A program made the position numbers and the translations under genes. From a virus: a DNA stretch of 64,000 bases. Shown in pieces: positions 7,001-37,861 of this stretch (positions are counted from its first letter, which is position 1; the number at the start of each line of letters is the position of its first letter). The notes under the pieces were generated by a model, which was not told the origin of the DNA, searched no databases, and saw nothing but the letters and a program-made list of their open reading frames with translations. The stretch spans positions 16,083 to 80,082 of the IMG/VR virus record IMGVR_UViG_3300032282_005588. One strand, given 5' to 3'.

Positions 7001-9745
7001 ATGTATCAATCAATATTTTATTCAAATCATGGTGAAGATAAAGGAACAGTTTATTTAAGAGATGATATAAAGGGATTTAGAGAATTCAAATATTATCCTA
7101 CTGTATATAAATTAGATCCTGATGGTGAATATGAAACACTATTTGGTGATATGTGTAGTCCTGTTCGAGGAAGATTTGATTGGAATGATCCTACTATATT
7201 AGAAAAAGACATTCAAAAAGATATTGCATGTTTAAGAGACTTATATTATAAAGATGATTCTGCTCCTTCATATCACAATATAATTTATTTAGATATTGAG
7301 ATAGAAATATTAGGTACTCTAACACCCCAATCAGTAAGAGAGGCAAAAGCAGAAGTAACTGCAATTGCCTTAATTGATGTTAATACTAAAACTAAATATT
7401 GTTATGTTTTAGATAAATCAAAAACTATAAAATCAATTAATCAGGATAATAAACAAATTGTACCTTGTGTTGATGAAAAAGAATTATTAAATAAATTTTT
7501 AGATAAATGGATTGAATTAGACCCAACCATAGTAGTTGGTTATAATAGTGATTTTTTTGATATACCTTACTTATATTTTAGAATAAAGAATATATTAGGA
7601 GAAAATACAGCTTTATTATTATCCCCTATTAAAAAAATAAATGATAATTTATATAATCCATATTCACCAATTCAAATTGGAGGAATAAATAGTTTAGATT
7701 ATATGTTGTTAGTTAAAAAATATATAGCTAAAGAAGAACCATCATATAAATTAGGAGACATAGGACAAAAATATGTTGATTTAGGAAAGATAGAATATCA
7801 AGGATCTTTAGATAGATTATTTAAAGAAGATCCAAATAAATTTATTGAATATAACTTACGAGACGTTGAAATAATAGAAAAATTAGAAGAAAAACTCCAA
7901 TTTATTAAACTAACCATATTAATATGTCATTTATGTCATGTTCCATATGAAAGTATTTATTATAATACTATATTAAATGAAGGTGCAATATTAACGTATC
8001 TAAAAAGGAAAAACATTGTATCACCTAATAAACCAACCACTACCAATAAATCAATTAAAGAATTATATGTTGGGGATGAAGTTATTCATCAAAGAGGAAC
8101 ACCAACAGTAGAAGGTACTATAGTTTATATAGATGAAGTAACAGGTAAAATACAAGTTAAAACTAAATCAGGTTCTATAAAAGATAGAAGTCCAAAAACA
8201 ATAAGAAAGAAAGAAAGCTATGCTGGGGGATATTTATTACCCCCCATTCCTGGCTTATATGAATATGTAAGTGATTCTGACTTTACTAGTCTATACCCAA
8301 GTATAATAAAATCATTAAATTTAGGTATTGAAACATTAATAGGAAGAATAGTTACAAAATCTAATTATGAACAATATAATAGTTTAGAAAAACTAAAAGA
8401 AAGAAATCAAGAAGAAATTATTCAAATAGAAAAATTAGATACTAAAACATATATTTTAAAACAAGGTAAATGTAAAATAAAAAACCTAATTAAACTAATT
8501 GAAACAAACAAATGGTCAATATCAGCAAGCGGAGCATTTTATAGAAACGATAAAAAAAGCATTACTTGTTTAGTCCTAGAAGATTGGTTTATACAAAGAG
8601 AACATTATAGAGACTTAAAAAAGAAAGCAGGTAAATCTAAAGATTGGGATAAATACTCATTATATGATTTGTATCAAATGGCCTTCAAAATATTACAGAA
8701 CGCATTATACGGTACATATGCTATAAATGGTTGGAGATATACTGATGGTCATAAAATATGTTCTTCATCTATCACTAATTCAGGTCAAAGATTAGTAAAA
8801 GAGAGTATTATCTATATAAATGAGGATTTAGAAAAAACTATTAATAGTGGTAGAAAAGAATTCGTAATAAGTTCAGATACTGATTCTGCTTATATTGAGT
8901 TAAAAGATTTATTAAATATAAAATATCCTGATGTTATCAATGAAGAAGAAAAGATAGAAAAATTAATAGAATTATCACAAGAACTCCAAGTAAAAACAAA
9001 TAAGAACTTATTTAAAATAAGTAAAGATTTATTTAATATTACTAATAAACATTATTTTGAACTCAAACAGGAAGTAATAGTTAAAAGAGCATACTGGTCA
9101 GGTAAAAGGAGATATGCAATGTGGGTAGTAAATAAAGAAGGAGTACCAATTCCCCCAGACCATAAAGATGCACTAGATATGAAAGGATTAGATATCATGA
9201 AATCAAACTTCCCACCCTATTTCAGAAAATTTGGGGAGGAATTAATTAAGAAAATATTATTTGATACTCCTAAATTAGAAGTAGATAAATATATATTAGA
9301 TTTTAAAAAATCACTAAATGATATAAGCTGGAAATATCTACTTAAACCAACAGGTCTTAAGAAGATAAAAGAGTACATATCATCACCACCCCAACCAGGA
9401 AATATATTCTCTAAATTAGCATTAAAATGCCCAATTAACACCAAAGCAGCAATATATTCATCCGATTTTATTAAGTTTAAAGGATTAGATAAACAATTTC
9501 CTCTTCCCCAAATAGGAGATAAAATATATATAGTATATCTAAAAAAGAACCCATATAATATAGATGTCATAGCTCTAAATGGATATAATGATCCACCAGA
9601 ATTATTAGAAATATCCGAAAAATATATTGATAGAGATAAAATATTTGATAGTGTTCTTAAGAATAAATTAGAAGGTATATATGAAGATTTAAATTGGGGG
9701 ATTTTAGTATTGAATAATAACATTAACAAATTTTTTAATTTCTGA
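7001..9745 (+). CDS. Family B DNA polymerase (T4 gp43-like)
   Basis: A 914-residue replicative polymerase. The proofreading exonuclease motifs are YLDIEIE (about residue 95), VGYNSDFFDIPYL (about 178) and YNLRDVEII (about 283). The polymerase motifs are DFTSLYPSII (about 427, motif A), ILQNALYGTYAING (about 563, motif B) and SSDTDSAYIEL (about 624, motif C), all with their catalytic aspartates. About 50 residues between exonuclease and palm (roughly 350-405, containing VGDEVIHQRGTPTVEG) look like an inserted small beta-barrel not typical of T4 gp43. Clamp and clamp-loader genes follow. Confidence 0.95.
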   Translation: MYQSIFYSNHGEDKGTVYLRDDIKGFREFKYYPTVYKLDPDGEYETLFGDMCSPVRGRFDWNDPTILEKDIQKDIACLRDLYYKDDSAPSYHNIIYLDIEIEILGTLTPQSVREAKAEVTAIALIDVNTKTKYCYVLDKSKTIKSINQDNKQIVPCVDEKELLNKFLDKWIELDPTIVVGYNSDFFDIPYLYFRIKNILGENTALLLSPIKKINDNLYNPYSPIQIGGINSLDYMLLVKKYIAKEEPSYKLGDIGQKYVDLGKIEYQGSLDRLFKEDPNKFIEYNLRDVEIIEKLEEKLQFIKLTILICHLCHVPYESIYYNTILNEGAILTYLKRKNIVSPNKPTTTNKSIKELYVGDEVIHQRGTPTVEGTIVYIDEVTGKIQVKTKSGSIKDRSPKTIRKKESYAGGYLLPPIPGLYEYVSDSDFTSLYPSIIKSLNLGIETLIGRIVTKSNYEQYNSLEKLKERNQEEIIQIEKLDTKTYILKQGKCKIKNLIKLIETNKWSISASGAFYRNDKKSITCLVLEDWFIQREHYRDLKKKAGKSKDWDKYSLYDLYQMAFKILQNALYGTYAINGWRYTDGHKICSSSITNSGQRLVKESIIYINEDLEKTINSGRKEFVISSDTDSAYIELKDLLNIKYPDVINEEEKIEKLIELSQELQVKTNKNLFKISKDLFNITNKHYFELKQEVIVKRAYWSGKRRYAMWVVNKEGVPIPPDHKDALDMKGLDIMKSNFPPYFRKFGEELIKKILFDTPKLEVDKYILDFKKSLNDISWKYLLKPTGLKKIKEYISSPPQPGNIFSKLALKCPINTKAAIYSSDFIKFKGLDKQFPLPQIGDKIYIVYLKKNPYNIDVIALNGYNDPPELLEISEKYIDRDKIFDSVLKNKLEGIYEDLNWGILVLNNNINKFFNF

Positions 9746-9823
9746 TAAAACTAACTTATAAATAACGAATATTAATTTAAGCTTGGATATATAAATAAAA
9801 ACCCATACATTTTAAATATAATA

Positions 9824-10564
9824 ATGAAAATACCAAAAAACATACTACAATCAATTATTTCAAAATATTATTTAGGCGGACTTATAGAGTCTGTAAAATG
9901 GTCAATAAATCAAGATAAACAATTGATTATCAATTTTATTTCACCTAGTGGGGAGATGATTGGTAATGTAACATGTAATGATTTTGATATAGAATCTACA
10001 GATATTGGGATTAGTAATACTTCCCAATTAATAAAATTACTACAAGTAACAAATGAAGAATTAGAATTAAATTTTGTTAAACAAAATAAAATTTATACTA
10101 AATTAAATATATCTGATAAGCAATTTAATGTTAGTTATACATTAGCAGATTTAATGATAATACCAAAACCAGCTACTATTGGTGATGTTGATTTTATTAT
10201 TGAATTTCCATTAATAGTAAATGATATCAATGCTTTAATAAAAGCTAAAAACGCATTACCTGATAGTGAAACAGTAGTTATATCTCATGACATTTTGAAT
10301 GGAAATAAAATTAAATTAGAATTTGGAGGAGATATTGAGTACGCTAATAAGATATTATATAATATTGATATGTCTGATGATAATTTAAATATGGATTTTG
10401 ATATTAATTCATTATATAATTCAAATATAATAAAAGAAATATTATCTAATAATAAAGACACAGATTATGCTACTATGGCTTTAAATCCTGAAGGTATAAT
10501 GAGATTATCATTTCATAAAGAAAACATAACATCAATTTATTTTCTTGTGGCTAAGGAAAAATAA
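9824..10564 (+). CDS. Sliding clamp (T4 gp45-like)
   Basis: At 246 residues this is close to T4 gp45 (228 aa), and it lies between the DNA polymerase gene and the chaperonin/clamp-loader genes. It has the weakly conserved two-domain beta-rich pattern of trimeric clamps, with TLADLMIIPKP midway and LVAKEK at the C-terminus. The assignment leans on position and size as much as on sequence. Role: processivity factor for the polymerase, and in T4 relatives a late-transcription activator. Confidence 0.72.
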   Translation: MKIPKNILQSIISKYYLGGLIESVKWSINQDKQLIINFISPSGEMIGNVTCNDFDIESTDIGISNTSQLIKLLQVTNEELELNFVKQNKIYTKLNISDKQFNVSYTLADLMIIPKPATIGDVDFIIEFPLIVNDINALIKAKNALPDSETVVISHDILNGNKIKLEFGGDIEYANKILYNIDMSDDNLNMDFDINSLYNSNIIKEILSNNKDTDYATMALNPEGIMRLSFHKENITSIYFLVAKEK

Positions 10565-10605
10565 TTATGTATATTTATAAATAAAGTTTTAATAAATAAA
10601 AGTAT

Positions 10606-12545
<1,940 letters not shown>

Positions 12546-34960: not shown

Positions 34961-35314
34961 ATGTTAATAATAAAAACCAAATTAGATAATTCATCAATTC
35001 ATGGAATTGGGTTGTTTTCATTAGAAAAAATAGAAAAAGAACAAGTCATTGCTGAATTGAGTGAATTTGATATTAAAATTAAAAAAGATGATGTTCCACA
35101 AAAACATATTGAAATGTTTGAGTTTTATTTTGGTGTTGAAAAAGATTGTTATCAAACATATTTTGACAACATGCGTTTTATGAATCATTCAGATTATCCA
35201 AATTGTATTGACGCAAAAAATGGTTTATGTATTGCTATTAAAGATATCGAAATAGGTAAAGAACTTACTTGCGATTATTCTTTTTTTTGTGATTTATGGG
35301 AAAATATTGATTAA
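34961..35314 (+). CDS. SET-domain protein
   Basis: 117 residues forming a compact SET domain: GIGLFSLEKIEKEQVIAE at the start, MRFMNHSDYPNC (the NHSxxPNC SAM-binding pseudoknot half) and IGKELTCDYSFF (GEELxxDY half). SET proteins methylate lysines using SAM. It has its own promoter-like leader. It lies immediately upstream of the cassette array and has a cassette-like size, but no attC-like palindrome flanks it directly. Confidence 0.82.
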   Translation: MLIIKTKLDNSSIHGIGLFSLEKIEKEQVIAELSEFDIKIKKDDVPQKHIEMFEFYFGVEKDCYQTYFDNMRFMNHSDYPNCIDAKNGLCIAIKDIEIGKELTCDYSFFCDLWENID

Positions 35315-35383
35315 ATATTAATTTTTTTTTCATTTTTATTAGGAATATCGAAATAAGTTTATTACCTTTGAAAAAAAATAGAT

Positions 35384-35562: not shown

Positions 35563-35616
35563 CATATAACGGTTGCAAATAAAACATCGTTTTAATGTGT
35601 TTTATTTGTTGTTATG
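35563..35616 (+). repeat. attC-like site 1
   Basis: Outer box ATAAC (35566-35570) with GTTAT (35611-35615). Left spacer GGTTG, inner stem CAAATAAAACA/TGTTTTATTTG (11 bp perfect, 35576-35586 and 35598-35608), right spacer TT. The loop TCGTTTTAATG recurs in the cassette inserted in the tRNA gene at 52 kb. Confidence 0.82.
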
Positions 35617-35656
35617 TTTTAGTTTTAAAAATTTTATACAAATAAAAAATAAATAT

Positions 35657-36025
35657 ATGGAAACAAAAAAAGCAGAAATAGAAATAAAAAACTTACTTGA
35701 TAGTGGTTTAAGTTTTGAATATGATTTTGATTACAATAATGTAAATAAAGTTAATTTAGCAATTAACAGAGAAGGATATTCTATAAAAGATATTATTTCA
35801 AAACTTAAACAAGGTGAGAAAATTACTTTTATGATAAATGATGGTGAAACTTGGAATGAAAAACAAGGCAATGAAAGTAAGTTTTTATACAATGAAAAAT
35901 ATGATGGTTCTATTTATTGGGAACACAAAACTTATGGTGATTGGGTAAGGGTTGATAGCAATATGGGTTCGTTACAAGAATGGTCAAAAGAATTAAATGA
36001 TAAGTTTTGTATAAAACAATCATAA
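35657..36025 (+). CDS. Cassette 1 hypothetical protein (122 aa)
   Basis: ATG 35657 is preferred; the frame extends upstream into the attC-like palindrome. The product is acidic and strand-rich (FEYDFDYNNVNKVNLAIN, ITFMINDGETWNEKQ, YDGSIYWEHKTYGDWVRV). No family recognised. It lies between attC-like sites 1 and 2, and its cassette ends in AAACATAAC. Confidence 0.65.
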   Translation: METKKAEIEIKNLLDSGLSFEYDFDYNNVNKVNLAINREGYSIKDIISKLKQGEKITFMINDGETWNEKQGNESKFLYNEKYDGSIYWEHKTYGDWVRVDSNMGSLQEWSKELNDKFCIKQS

Positions 36026-36042
36026 AATTTTTAAAATTAAAC

Positions 36043-36357
36043 ATAACGGTTGCGGATATATGAATGTAAAAAATTAATAATTAGAAAGATGATAACAATA
36101 CAAAATTTAACGGAATTAGGTTTTAGTGAGATACTTGATATATTCACTGGAAAACAAGTTTGGGTTTTAGGTGAAGAAGATACGGAGATATGTGGAAACC
36201 CCTGTAGATTACCAATATTATATTACAACATAGAAACTCAAACTTGTAAAGTAGTTAGGGGTGAATTTTGTGTTGTTCAACGAGAATGTAAATCGGAGGA
36301 AGAAATTAGAAAGTTTGTAGAATCTATTAATTTTTTATTTCATATATCCGTTGTTAT
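36043..36357 (+). repeat. attC-like site 2 (long-loop)
   Basis: ATAAC (36043-36047), spacer GGTTG, arm CGGATATATGAA (36053-36064), complementary arm TTCATATATCCG (36339-36350), spacer TT, GTTAT (36353-36357). The architecture is identical to the other sites, but the loop is 274 nt and contains most of the cassette ORF. Confidence 0.75.
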
Positions 36358-36418
36358 AAATAGTAAATTAAAATGGTATCAAAAATTGATTGGTGCATTT
36401 AAGAACAGAAGATTTTAA
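36089..36418 (+). CDS. Cassette 2 hypothetical protein (109 aa)
   Basis: ATG 36089 gives 109 residues. TGKQVWVLGEEDTEICGNPC, ILYYNIETQTCKVVRGEFCV and SEEEIRKFVESINF are distinctive; four cysteines could bind metal. About 83 codons lie in the loop of attC-like site 2, and the C-terminal HISVVIN is encoded by the site's right arm. The natural protein might be shorter, with the tail added by the arm. Confidence 0.6.
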   Translation: MITIQNLTELGFSEILDIFTGKQVWVLGEEDTEICGNPCRLPILYYNIETQTCKVVRGEFCVVQRECKSEEEIRKFVESINFLFHISVVINSKLKWYQKLIGAFKNRRF

Positions 36419-36428
36419 TTTATTGTTT

Positions 36429-36555
36429 ATAACGGTTACAGATATATGTAGTTTTTTTCTTAAATTGAAACACAAAACTTAAATAATATGAACAAAGATA
36501 ATAAGAACACGGAAGTTGATAACACAGATAAAAAATTACATATATCTGATGTTAT
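36429..36555 (+). repeat. attC-like site 3
   Basis: ATAAC (36429-36433), spacer GGTTA, arm CAGATATATGTA (36439-36450), complementary arm TACATATATCTG (36537-36548), spacer AT, GTTAT (36551-36555). The 86-nt loop contains the leader and first codons of the next gene. Confidence 0.78.
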
Positions 36556-36709
36556 GAAACGTATTGACGAACTGATAGATGAATATAAACAAGCGAAAAT
36601 TAATATAGACACGTGTACAGATGACTTTGAATGGAATAATTTAGATAGAAGGATAAGTCATTTAAAACGCTTGTTTATAGAAATTGGTGTATGGAAATAT
36701 GTTTCATAA
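36488..36709 (+). CDS. Cassette 3 hypothetical protein (73 aa)
   Basis: 73 residues, helical (VMKRIDELIDEYKQAKINID; LDRRISHLKRLFIEIGVW). The segment HISDVMK is encoded by the right arm and GTTAT box of attC-like site 3, and the stop codon lies inside the ATAAC box of site 4, so the gene fills its cassette completely. The leader ACACAAAACTTAAATAAT lies in the attC loop. Confidence 0.62.
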   Translation: MNKDNKNTEVDNTDKKLHISDVMKRIDELIDEYKQAKINIDTCTDDFEWNNLDRRISHLKRLFIEIGVWKYVS

Positions 36710-36793
36710 CGATTGGGTATATATGAAGTACCTAACGATAAACTTAAATAATTAGTAGAAACTTTATGAGGTATTTCATATATACCTTGTTAT
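36706..36793 (+). repeat. attC-like site 4
   Basis: ATAAC (36706-36710), spacer GATTG, arm GGTATATATGAA (36716-36727), complementary arm TTCATATATACC (36775-36786), spacer TT, GTTAT (36789-36793). An extra inner pairing TACCT/AGGTA tightens the loop. The most compact complete site of the array besides sites 1 and 5. Confidence 0.85.
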
Positions 36794-36805
36794 AAAACGT
36801 TTATT

Positions 36806-37048
36806 ATGAGATTTAAAAAATTGATTTATAAAAATTTCTTTGGAGAATACAACATTTTGATAACCATAACAGATGATGGTAAAACACCACACAGAGACAC
36901 ATTAATTCCAGATAGGGAAATATATAATTCACATATTTGGATTCACGATAATATTGTAAAAAAGAATCACACAAGAAAAGAAATTTTTATTCTTGATTCT
37001 ATTGTGAGTGATGACGAACTTAAAAGTGTTCTTGGAAATGTTTTATAA
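36806..37048 (+). CDS. Cassette 4 hypothetical protein (80 aa)
   Basis: 80 residues: FFGEYNILITITDDGKTPHR, then IHDNIVKKNHTRKEIFIL and a final SDDELKSVLGNVL. No family recognised. The stop codon TAA is inside the ATAAC box of attC-like site 5. Confidence 0.62.
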   Translation: MRFKKLIYKNFFGEYNILITITDDGKTPHRDTLIPDREIYNSHIWIHDNIVKKNHTRKEIFILDSIVSDDELKSVLGNVL

Positions 37049-37127
37049 CGTTTTGCACATAAGCGAAGGCACAAATTGCGTTGGCATTGTGCGGTTGGAT
37101 TTGGGCTTTTGCTTATGTGCTGTTAGC
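37045..37127 (+). repeat. attC-like site 5
   Basis: ATAAC (37045-37049), spacer GTTTT, arm GCACATAAGC (37055-37064), inner hairpin GCACAA/TTGTGC, complementary arm GCTTATGTGC (37111-37120), then TGTTAGCA (box GTTAGC). It is visibly richer in G and C than the phage background and looks like a classic bacterial attC with a branched loop. Confidence 0.85.
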
Positions 37128-37163
37128 AGTAGTACGGATTATTAACAAATAAATATAAATAGA

Positions 37164-37385
37164 ATGAGAATTTATCAATTAAGAACAGCAAAAGAGTTTT
37201 ACAACTCAATTAAAGGAAACTTCACAACAGAAGAATTAATGCAAATGTATGCAGAAGATGTAGCAAAAAGATTTGCTGCTGAATGTGTAAATGAGGCACT
37301 CGGTAATAAGATGGAAGTGTCAAACTCTTTGCATCACGCAATAGAAGGAAAGTACAAATCTATCATTTGGGAGAACGAAGGTTAG
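37164..37385 (+). CDS. Cassette 5 hypothetical protein (73 aa)
   Basis: 73 residues, helical: LRTAKEFYNSIKGNFTTEEL, MYAEDVAKRFAAECVNEALG and HHAIEGKYKSIIWENEG. Codon use is less A/T-biased than neighbouring phage genes. No family recognised. Cassette ends in CTGCTAAC, the exact complement of its starting GTTAGCAG. Confidence 0.65.
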   Translation: MRIYQLRTAKEFYNSIKGNFTTEELMQMYAEDVAKRFAAECVNEALGNKMEVSNSLHHAIEGKYKSIIWENEG

Positions 37386-37392
37386 TATTACT

Positions 37393-37522
37393 GCTAACGG
37401 TCGGGTATTGTTGTCTGTTGGCGACTTAAACCACAAATGTTAAATTGAAAAACAAAATTAGATATGAGTACAAAAGTTAAATCGAAGCACAAAACCGCCA
37501 ATAGCAACAATACCTTGTTATC
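37393..37522 (+). repeat. attC-like site 6
   Basis: GCTAAC (37393-37398), spacer GGTCG, arm GGTATTGTTG (37404-37413) plus TTGGCG, complementary CGCCAA plus CAACAATACC (37505-37514), spacer TT, GTTATC (37517-37522). The loop holds a promoter-like leader and the start codon of the last cassette gene. Confidence 0.82.
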
Positions 37523-37796
37523 GGCTGCCTTTCTTATTAGCAAGGGCTTCAAGTTGGTAGAAGAAAGTCAAAGTCCGTTTGAAAATTTCAAAATGGATTA
37601 TTTTGTAAAAGAAGGGGTACTGCTTTTTTTCAATACGCCTGTAACCGAATGGAACGAAAATGATTTCCTTGTTGGATGTGCTGAAATGAGATGTGGGAAG
37701 TATTACGTTGTTGCTTTTAGGTGGATAAAAGAGCAAAAAGATATTATTGAAATTTACAAATCGGTAAAAGGTAAGGATTTGGATGGTGTCGGTTAA
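37464..37796 (+). CDS. Cassette 6 hypothetical protein (110 aa)
   Basis: 110 residues. The N-terminal KTANSNNTLLSAAF is encoded by the right arm of attC-like site 6; the folded part probably begins near FLISKGFKLVEE. It has GKYYVVAFRWIKEQKDIIEI near the C-terminus. Less A/T-rich than the phage genes. Cassette closest to the recombinase gene, which in an integron would be the most recently acquired. Confidence 0.62.
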   Translation: MSTKVKSKHKTANSNNTLLSAAFLISKGFKLVEESQSPFENFKMDYFVKEGVLLFFNTPVTEWNENDFLVGCAEMRCGKYYVVAFRWIKEQKDIIEIYKSVKGKDLDGVG

Positions 37797-37861
37797 GGTT
37801 GCCGCTAACTATTATATATACGCAACTACGTTTAATCACCAATAAAATCAACGGTTTTAAT
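37797..37861 (+). other. attI-like junction between array and recombinase
   Basis: The last cassette ends in TTGCCGCTAAC (37799-37809), complementary with one mismatch to its own start box region GTTATCGGC. The following 52 bases (TATTATATATACGCAACTAC onward) are unlike any cassette and lead to the recombinase start codon. This is where an integron's attI site would be. No palindrome follows, consistent with a simple (attI-type) partner. Confidence 0.5.

Follow-up and report, generated by a model that had tools for sequence, protein, structure and literature searches.

The window, i.e., the whole 64,000-nucleotide stretch analysed here (positions 16083-80082 of the 80,082-base IMG/VR phage record IMGVR_UViG_3300032282_005588), contains between 35.5 and 37.8 kb six hairpins which share one geometry, each with a small gene after it, and then the gene for a tyrosine recombinase (Table 1). 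These probably constitute, with a likelihood that we would put at about 0.8 based upon comparisons of sequence, an integron-like gene-capture platform of uncultured Bacteroidota phages, one having inverted cassettes and an Xer/IntI-like recombinase.

Cassettes, each made up of a hairpin site with a small gene after it, would in this case be inserted as well as excised by the recombinase, at an attI-like site (TAAC|TATTATATATA) fixed beside the recombinase's own start. It would be the coding strand that folds into the hairpin, to be cut there at TAA^C, and the cassette presumably would pass through a circle, its two ends pairing. The hairpin may double as a translation-start module, that is, one supplying an A-rich leader, an ATG, and sometimes 15-30 residues, and the genes therefore would need no start site from the platform.

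Layout of the array and geometry of the hairpins

The six-cassette array terminates at the attI-like site, directly 5' of the Xer/IntI-like recombinase gene, and the array genes are co-directional with adjacent phage genes. Just 5' of the array is a gene for a SET-domain protein (34961-35314; Pfam SET, E 2.8e-13), which is unusual for a phage, and a GroEL-type chaperonin is phage-encoded as well (10929-12545; phrog_5725, 489 bits). A Pfam search with the cassette 1 protein gave nothing above cut-off.

Table 1. Features of the cassette array and its recombinase (positions are those of the window; L plus a number designates a compared locus).
Feature	Position	Strand	Remarks
attC-like hairpin 1 (TAAC ... 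GTTA)	35567..35614	+	single-stranded DNA fold z -3.1; moves with downstream gene (L107)
Cassette 1 gene, 122 aa	35657..36025	+	cassette unit 35567-36043; 99.4% identical unit in L107, flanks unrelated
Cassette 1 body, inverted-repeat ends (GTTATGTTTTAG.../...AAACATAAC)	35611..36047	+	repeats I6/I7; general rule over 217 cassettes
attC-like hairpin 2	36044..36356	+	gene start and most of gene in loop; left boundary same in L108-L111, L113, L114
Cassette 2 gene, 109 aa	36089..36418	+	start within hairpin loop; cassette unit 36044-36429
attC-like hairpin 3	36430..36554	+	A-rich leader, ATG, and an N-terminal leader (final residues LHISDV) in loop
Cassette 3 gene, 73 aa	36488..36709	+	start in loop, right arm read through; cassette unit 36430-36706
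attC-like hairpin 4	36707..36792	+	single-stranded DNA fold z -4.6
Cassette 4 gene, 80 aa	36806..37048	+	cassette unit 36707-37045; 96.5% identical unit in L104, flanks unrelated
attC-like hairpin 5	37046..37125	+	single-stranded DNA fold z -4.5
Cassette 5 gene, 73 aa	37164..37385	+	body ends GTTAGCAGTAGTAC / GTATTACTGCTAAC
attC-like hairpin 6	37395..37520	+	loop holds leader and ATG; NNTLL encoded by right arm
Cassette 6 gene, 110 aa	37464..37796	+	start in loop; relative in L105
attI-like site TAAC|TATTATATATA, array/platform joint	37806..37820	+	kept 5' of recombinase in relatives; sequence 5' of TAAC variable
Tyrosine recombinase, 265 aa	37862..38659	+	Pfam Phage_integrase 8e-33

All six hairpins run from TAAC through 5 nt into a stem and then, from the stem's other arm, through 1-2 nt to GTTA. 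The same scan found no hairpin of this TAAC/5-nt/1-2-nt/GTTA geometry on the minus strand. At a threshold of 11 pairs, 5 sites are found in the real sequence versus 0-1 in shuffles, and the window's five shorter hairpins, as folded as single-stranded DNA, display z values of -2.2 to -4.6 relative to shuffles. Once G.T is admitted as a pair, the folded structure is an almost perfect hairpin, its 5' arm having a small bulge. When 80 related viral loci, metagenomic and in part related to one another, were scanned openly with 81 spacer combinations, about 249 hits resulted, 214 of these with the window's geometry; since a hairpin is detected only if it has TAAC, GTTA, and a long stem, such counts are lower bounds.

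Cassettes here, as in integrons, are bounded by imperfect palindromic sites. Of the integron core box (GTTRRRY / RYYYAAC), GTTA/TAAC is kept while the remainder mostly is not: in roughly two thirds of 217 cassettes, T rather than a purine follows GTTA.

Which gene a hairpin belongs to

Cassettes 1 and 4 recur in other phages at 96.5-99% DNA identity and in unrelated contexts. The cassette 1 match with L107 (99.4%) spans from the TAAC of that cassette's own upstream hairpin to TAACGGTTG past the gene, with both flanks unrelated, and the contig concerned carries a recombinase (L034) having 66% identity to that of the window. Cassette 2 similarly recurs, at 90-96% in L108-L111, L113, and L114, with an unchanged left boundary. 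The shared unit, that is, runs from TAAC(G) in the upstream hairpin as far as the next TAAC, and because of this the hairpin is seen to lie 5' of its own gene, the reverse of the textbook arrangement.

Of 383 similarity blocks among the loci as a whole, 227 begin no more than 12 nt from a left-arm TAAC, versus 10 near a right-arm GTTA. Where the same gene body is seen in a changed context (31 comparisons), it has the same upstream hairpin in 28 and a different one in 3, though blocks and comparisons alike are not independent, involving about 11 separate cassettes. In these changed contexts the neighbours on either side are at background and the next hairpin downstream differs. The preliminary description had posited a breakpoint at TAACG, a palindrome upstream of each gene, and genes directed toward the recombinase, i.e., inverted relative to textbook integrons. 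Recurring units, block starts, and reordered arrays (below) bear out this breakpoint, the sharing of hairpins with downstream genes bears out the palindrome's position, and the direction of the genes stands as well.

Were this instead a textbook integron, then the hairpin would belong to the upstream gene, recombination would take place on the GTTA side, and gene orientation would be normal. A few cases in which the body is kept but the upstream hairpin has changed, as if cut at GTTA, are in line with that idea. We consider it nonetheless to be highly improbable, as the hairpin follows the downstream gene in those 28 comparisons with the next downstream hairpin differing, as blocks start at TAAC rather than at GTTA, and as the attI-like site too joins at TAAC. 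The textbook assignment of hairpins to upstream genes thus is rejected. Textbook cassettes possess an attC site 3' of the gene, with the joint at that 3' end; here hairpin and joint both are 5', and orientation within cassettes is opposite to that of textbook cassettes.

Cassette 5 illustrates variation in hairpins. Its body along with its ends is kept in L083-L085, L089-L091, and L093, while the surrounding hairpins vary, and in L083 a hairpin that is similar to hairpin 5 stands after rather than before the gene body.

Movement and the attI-like site

Three close relatives, L019, L020, and L022, are 97-99.6% identical downstream of the array. The cassettes they carry are the same, but the order is not, and the joints fall exactly at TAAC or TAACG. 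A 960-nt cassette adjoins attI in two of these relatives and is internal in the third. Cassettes, as in integrons, thus appear to be gained, lost, and reordered at exact joints. As comparison among loci shows, the hairpin travels with the downstream gene, unit boundaries are at TAAC(G), and reordering occurs among close relatives. In another array, one cassette is present twice, its copies (L060:4555-4943 and L060:7557-7945) being 100% identical.

Just 5' of the recombinase in relatives is found TAAC and then TATTATATATA or a close variant, with all sequence 5' of that TAAC variable. The strict form is present in 54 of 69 testable viral loci, most of the others having looser forms, and the site is single copy in the window's record. 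It would correspond to the fixed attI which, in integrons, stands beside the recombinase at the start of the array. Among the 80 related viral loci (about 1 Mb), 231 hairpins are upstream of the recombinase and on its strand, 2 are downstream, and 0 are reversed. With attI adjoining the recombinase, and hairpins so distributed, it follows that recombinase, attI, and joints have the classical layout, and that it is the gene within the cassette which is reversed.

Cassette ends and the strand predicted to fold

The two ends of a cassette are inverted repeats, with at least 8 of 10 positions paired in 138 of 217 cassettes versus 5.7 when re-dealt, and the end of the upstream neighbour has no complementarity to the cassette end. 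Passage through a circle with paired ends may be suggested from this complementarity within a cassette, together with its absence toward the upstream neighbour's end. Classical cassettes have a shorter version of such complementary ends. At position 7 after GTTA, the 5'-end G faces a 3'-end T in 157 of 217 cassettes, representing either a conserved wobble or instead a separate sequence motif within otherwise paired ends. Upon re-dealing, the cassette ends do not discriminate between strands.

The stems are more informative. At stem positions 9-16, G.T occurs at the rate given by composition (276 observed vs 288 expected), while on the coding strand A.C is nine-fold depleted (11 observed vs 95 expected). 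With G.T kept and A.C depleted, G.T is behaving as a pair, and so it is the coding strand that would fold, whether as DNA or as RNA. Raw stem counts, at 220 G.T versus 7 A.C, overstate the case as left arms are G-rich, and it is the depletion of A.C that carries the signal after re-dealing of arms. Stem mismatches, that is, point to folding of the coding strand, the mirror of the textbook bottom-strand preference. The cut position of IntI provides the model for these hairpins and, by analogy, cutting is predicted at TAA^C on the coding strand.

An RNA hairpin, too, could leave such a strand signal. From that perspective the hairpins might be mainly RNA leader structures, affecting translation or stability, with the array shuffled by homologous recombination between repeated hairpins. 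Loops do contain start codons and leaders, G.T is tolerated on the coding strand, just as it would be in RNA, and recombination could occur between near-identical hairpins where an array repeats them. Homologous exchange, however, would not set joints at one 4-nt box across unrelated hairpins, nor would it explain a conserved attI-like site adjoining a recombinase, the association of hairpins with that recombinase, or the pairing of cassette ends that are hundreds of bases apart. As the main account we therefore view RNA leaders as improbable, though hairpins may have RNA roles in addition to serving a capture platform.

Start codons and N-termini within hairpins

Three of the window's six hairpins hold a start codon (cassettes 2, 3, and 6). 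For cassettes 3 and 6, loops containing an A-rich leader and the start codon had been described previously, and these are indeed present, with ATGs at 36488 and 37464, respectively; the start in cassette 2 (ATG at 36089) is a third, absent from that earlier list. The right arm of hairpin 3 had been thought to encode HISDVMK. HISDV does lie in the arm, which encodes LHISDV, but MK comes after it, in the gene body (continuing as MKRIDEL). The claim of a coding right arm for cassette 6 holds, NNTLL being encoded there.

More generally, an open reading frame starts inside the hairpin and is read through the right arm at 92 of 274 distinct sites, mostly in one of two frames. The leaders ..NLNISDV, ..KKLHISDV, and ..NNANTLL recur on different bodies, and that of cassette 3 is also fused in frame to other bodies in other loci. 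Within leaders, A is over-represented at positions -14 to -10 and at position -3; cassettes, as read from these leaders, bring their own A-rich translation-initiation region. The leaders were also considered as capsid-targeting peptides, an idea that was rejected since the motif, a pattern which had been derived from the leaders themselves, is not enriched in other phage proteins (2/525).

Clustering of 281 cassettes gives 93 types of hairpin and 251 of body, with the commonest hairpin cluster, of 48 nt, occurring 60 times on 55 bodies. As hairpin types are common to many bodies, movement of whole cassettes alone is insufficient, and a second type of exchange therefore is needed, one bounded by TAAC and GTTA. 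Tentatively, and with considerable doubt, the recombinase might also swap hairpin tips, i.e., if it carried both strand exchanges to completion between two folded sites at their TAAC/GTTA core. Since tips carry start codons and N-termini, such exchange would create new in-frame protein fusions.

Transcription

Each cassette had been suggested to bring its own promoter, and this was not borne out: sigma-70-like sites in the array numbered 14 versus 15.8 expected. The Bacteroidota -7 motif, TAnnTTTG, is found in 2 of 92 cassettes with in-loop starts (shuffles, about 3) and in 19 of 167 other leaders (shuffles, about 8), the latter a mild enrichment. Promoter scans for a platform promoter, Pc, are at chance, and genes point toward the platform. 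As the array is co-directional with neighbouring phage genes, read-through from upstream is possible, and transcription thus may be by read-through from phage promoters. The sequence TACCTTTG at 35363-35370, shortly before the first gene on the array side (35384), matches the Bacteroidota -7 motif and might serve to transcribe the array; inspection by eye showed no -33 partner to it.

The recombinase

The catalytic residues R131, K156, H215, R218, H241, and Y250 are invariant over 20 relatives, as is expected of a tyrosine recombinase. Against the integron-integrase model TIGR02249 the protein scores 147.8 bits versus a cut-off of 265, in a match that splits at profile position 181, the model including an IntI-specific insertion. 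Scores with curated Xer equivalog models also are below cut-offs (XerA_Arch 177.4/220, XerD 146.8/329.6, XerC 146.5/335.15). The best family and structure matches are to XerA, and the protein may be described as XerA/IntI4-like by sequence and by fold, the latter from a structure model of moderate quality (mean pLDDT 86, pTM 0.62). By context the recombinase would work like an integron integrase, though it is not filed here as IntI. Its score below the integron-integrase cut-off counts against the platform reading, as do the 3 of 31 same-body comparisons in which the hairpin differs.

That score is also in keeping with a different scenario, wherein an attC cluster is moved by the integron integrase of a host and the adjacent phage recombinase serves for phage integration only, clusters lacking an integron integrase being known from virulent phages (PMC9892861). 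Such dependence on a host is very unlikely, since hairpins are 5' of the recombinase in most of the 80 relatives, since the conserved site adjoins the phage recombinase, and since five host-type genomes hold no protein above the integron-integrase cut-off.

Comparison with known systems

With integrons, whether class 1 or sedentary chromosomal (IntI, attI, attC), the platform proposed here shares a tyrosine recombinase that has a fixed site next to its 5' end, arrays whose genes are small and for the most part unknown, TAAC/GTTA outer boxes on hairpin sites, exact single-site joints, and complementary cassette ends. It differs in that its recombinase is below the IntI cut-off, its hairpin is 5' of a gene whose orientation is reversed, its sites mostly do not match GTTRRRY and have an asymmetric spacer (5/1-2 nt), start codons and N-termini are within hairpins, and Pc was not found in promoter scans. 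Strand selectivity is described in PMC8946536.

In the reverse integron of Treponema denticola it is the integrase gene that is turned round (PMC4909258). There too the recombinase gene and cassette genes run the same way, whereas here it is the gene inside each cassette that is reversed, with recombinase, attI-like site, and joints in their usual layout. Phage-borne integrons and attC clusters (PMC9892861) likewise represent attC-type cassette arrays in phage genomes, but have IntI-type sites, several of which are recombined by IntI1 at G|TTRRRY, and the known integron orientation, versus the own, non-IntI recombinase and inverted cassettes of the present arrays. ORF-11 of attI1, in class 1 integrons, supports cassette translation via translational coupling from a single attI (PMC8876359). 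A recombination site thereby provides translation initiation for cassettes, as is seen here, except that here the start codon is in each cassette's own hairpin, often with an N-terminus fused in frame. Xer, to which the recombinase has its best matches, acts on the dif site in chromosome resolution, whereas the present protein, below the XerA cut-off, adjoins a cassette array.

Distribution and cassette content

Relatives that have the attI-like motif are nearly all metagenomic phage contigs of up to several hundred kilobases. The motif is present, as is the recombinase, in four genome assemblies (L115, L116, L117, and L120). These are labelled Aequorivita, Sunxiuqinia indica, Methylophaga (a MAG), and Bacteroidales, and L120 has several hairpins. 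Arrays in bacterial chromosomes were also considered, but most genome relatives have neither motif nor array, those four alone carrying the motif. The 462-kb uncultured phage record LR756500.1 (L204), which is unannotated, has several such hairpins at 9417-11911. In a collection of phage isolates no recombinase exceeded 60% identity to that of the window. Of 100 cassette proteins few have Pfam matches, four being to DNA methyltransferase families. A literature search found no description matching this arrangement, though with a scope that excluded preprints and included few subscription papers such absence is weak evidence.

Implications

The integron plan, of IntI, a Pc promoter, and one orientation, would be shown by this platform to exist also in inverted form, on a different recombinase branch and among uncultured phages. 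The arrays bear as well on the birth of cassettes, as a limited set of hairpins is joined to many bodies at one box, with the reading frame often crossing the site. This would represent a natural system for joining different N-termini to gene bodies and, should tip exchange prove true, a recombination system which mixes translation-start modules with those bodies. For the phages themselves, it would be a route by which small genes of unknown function are gathered.
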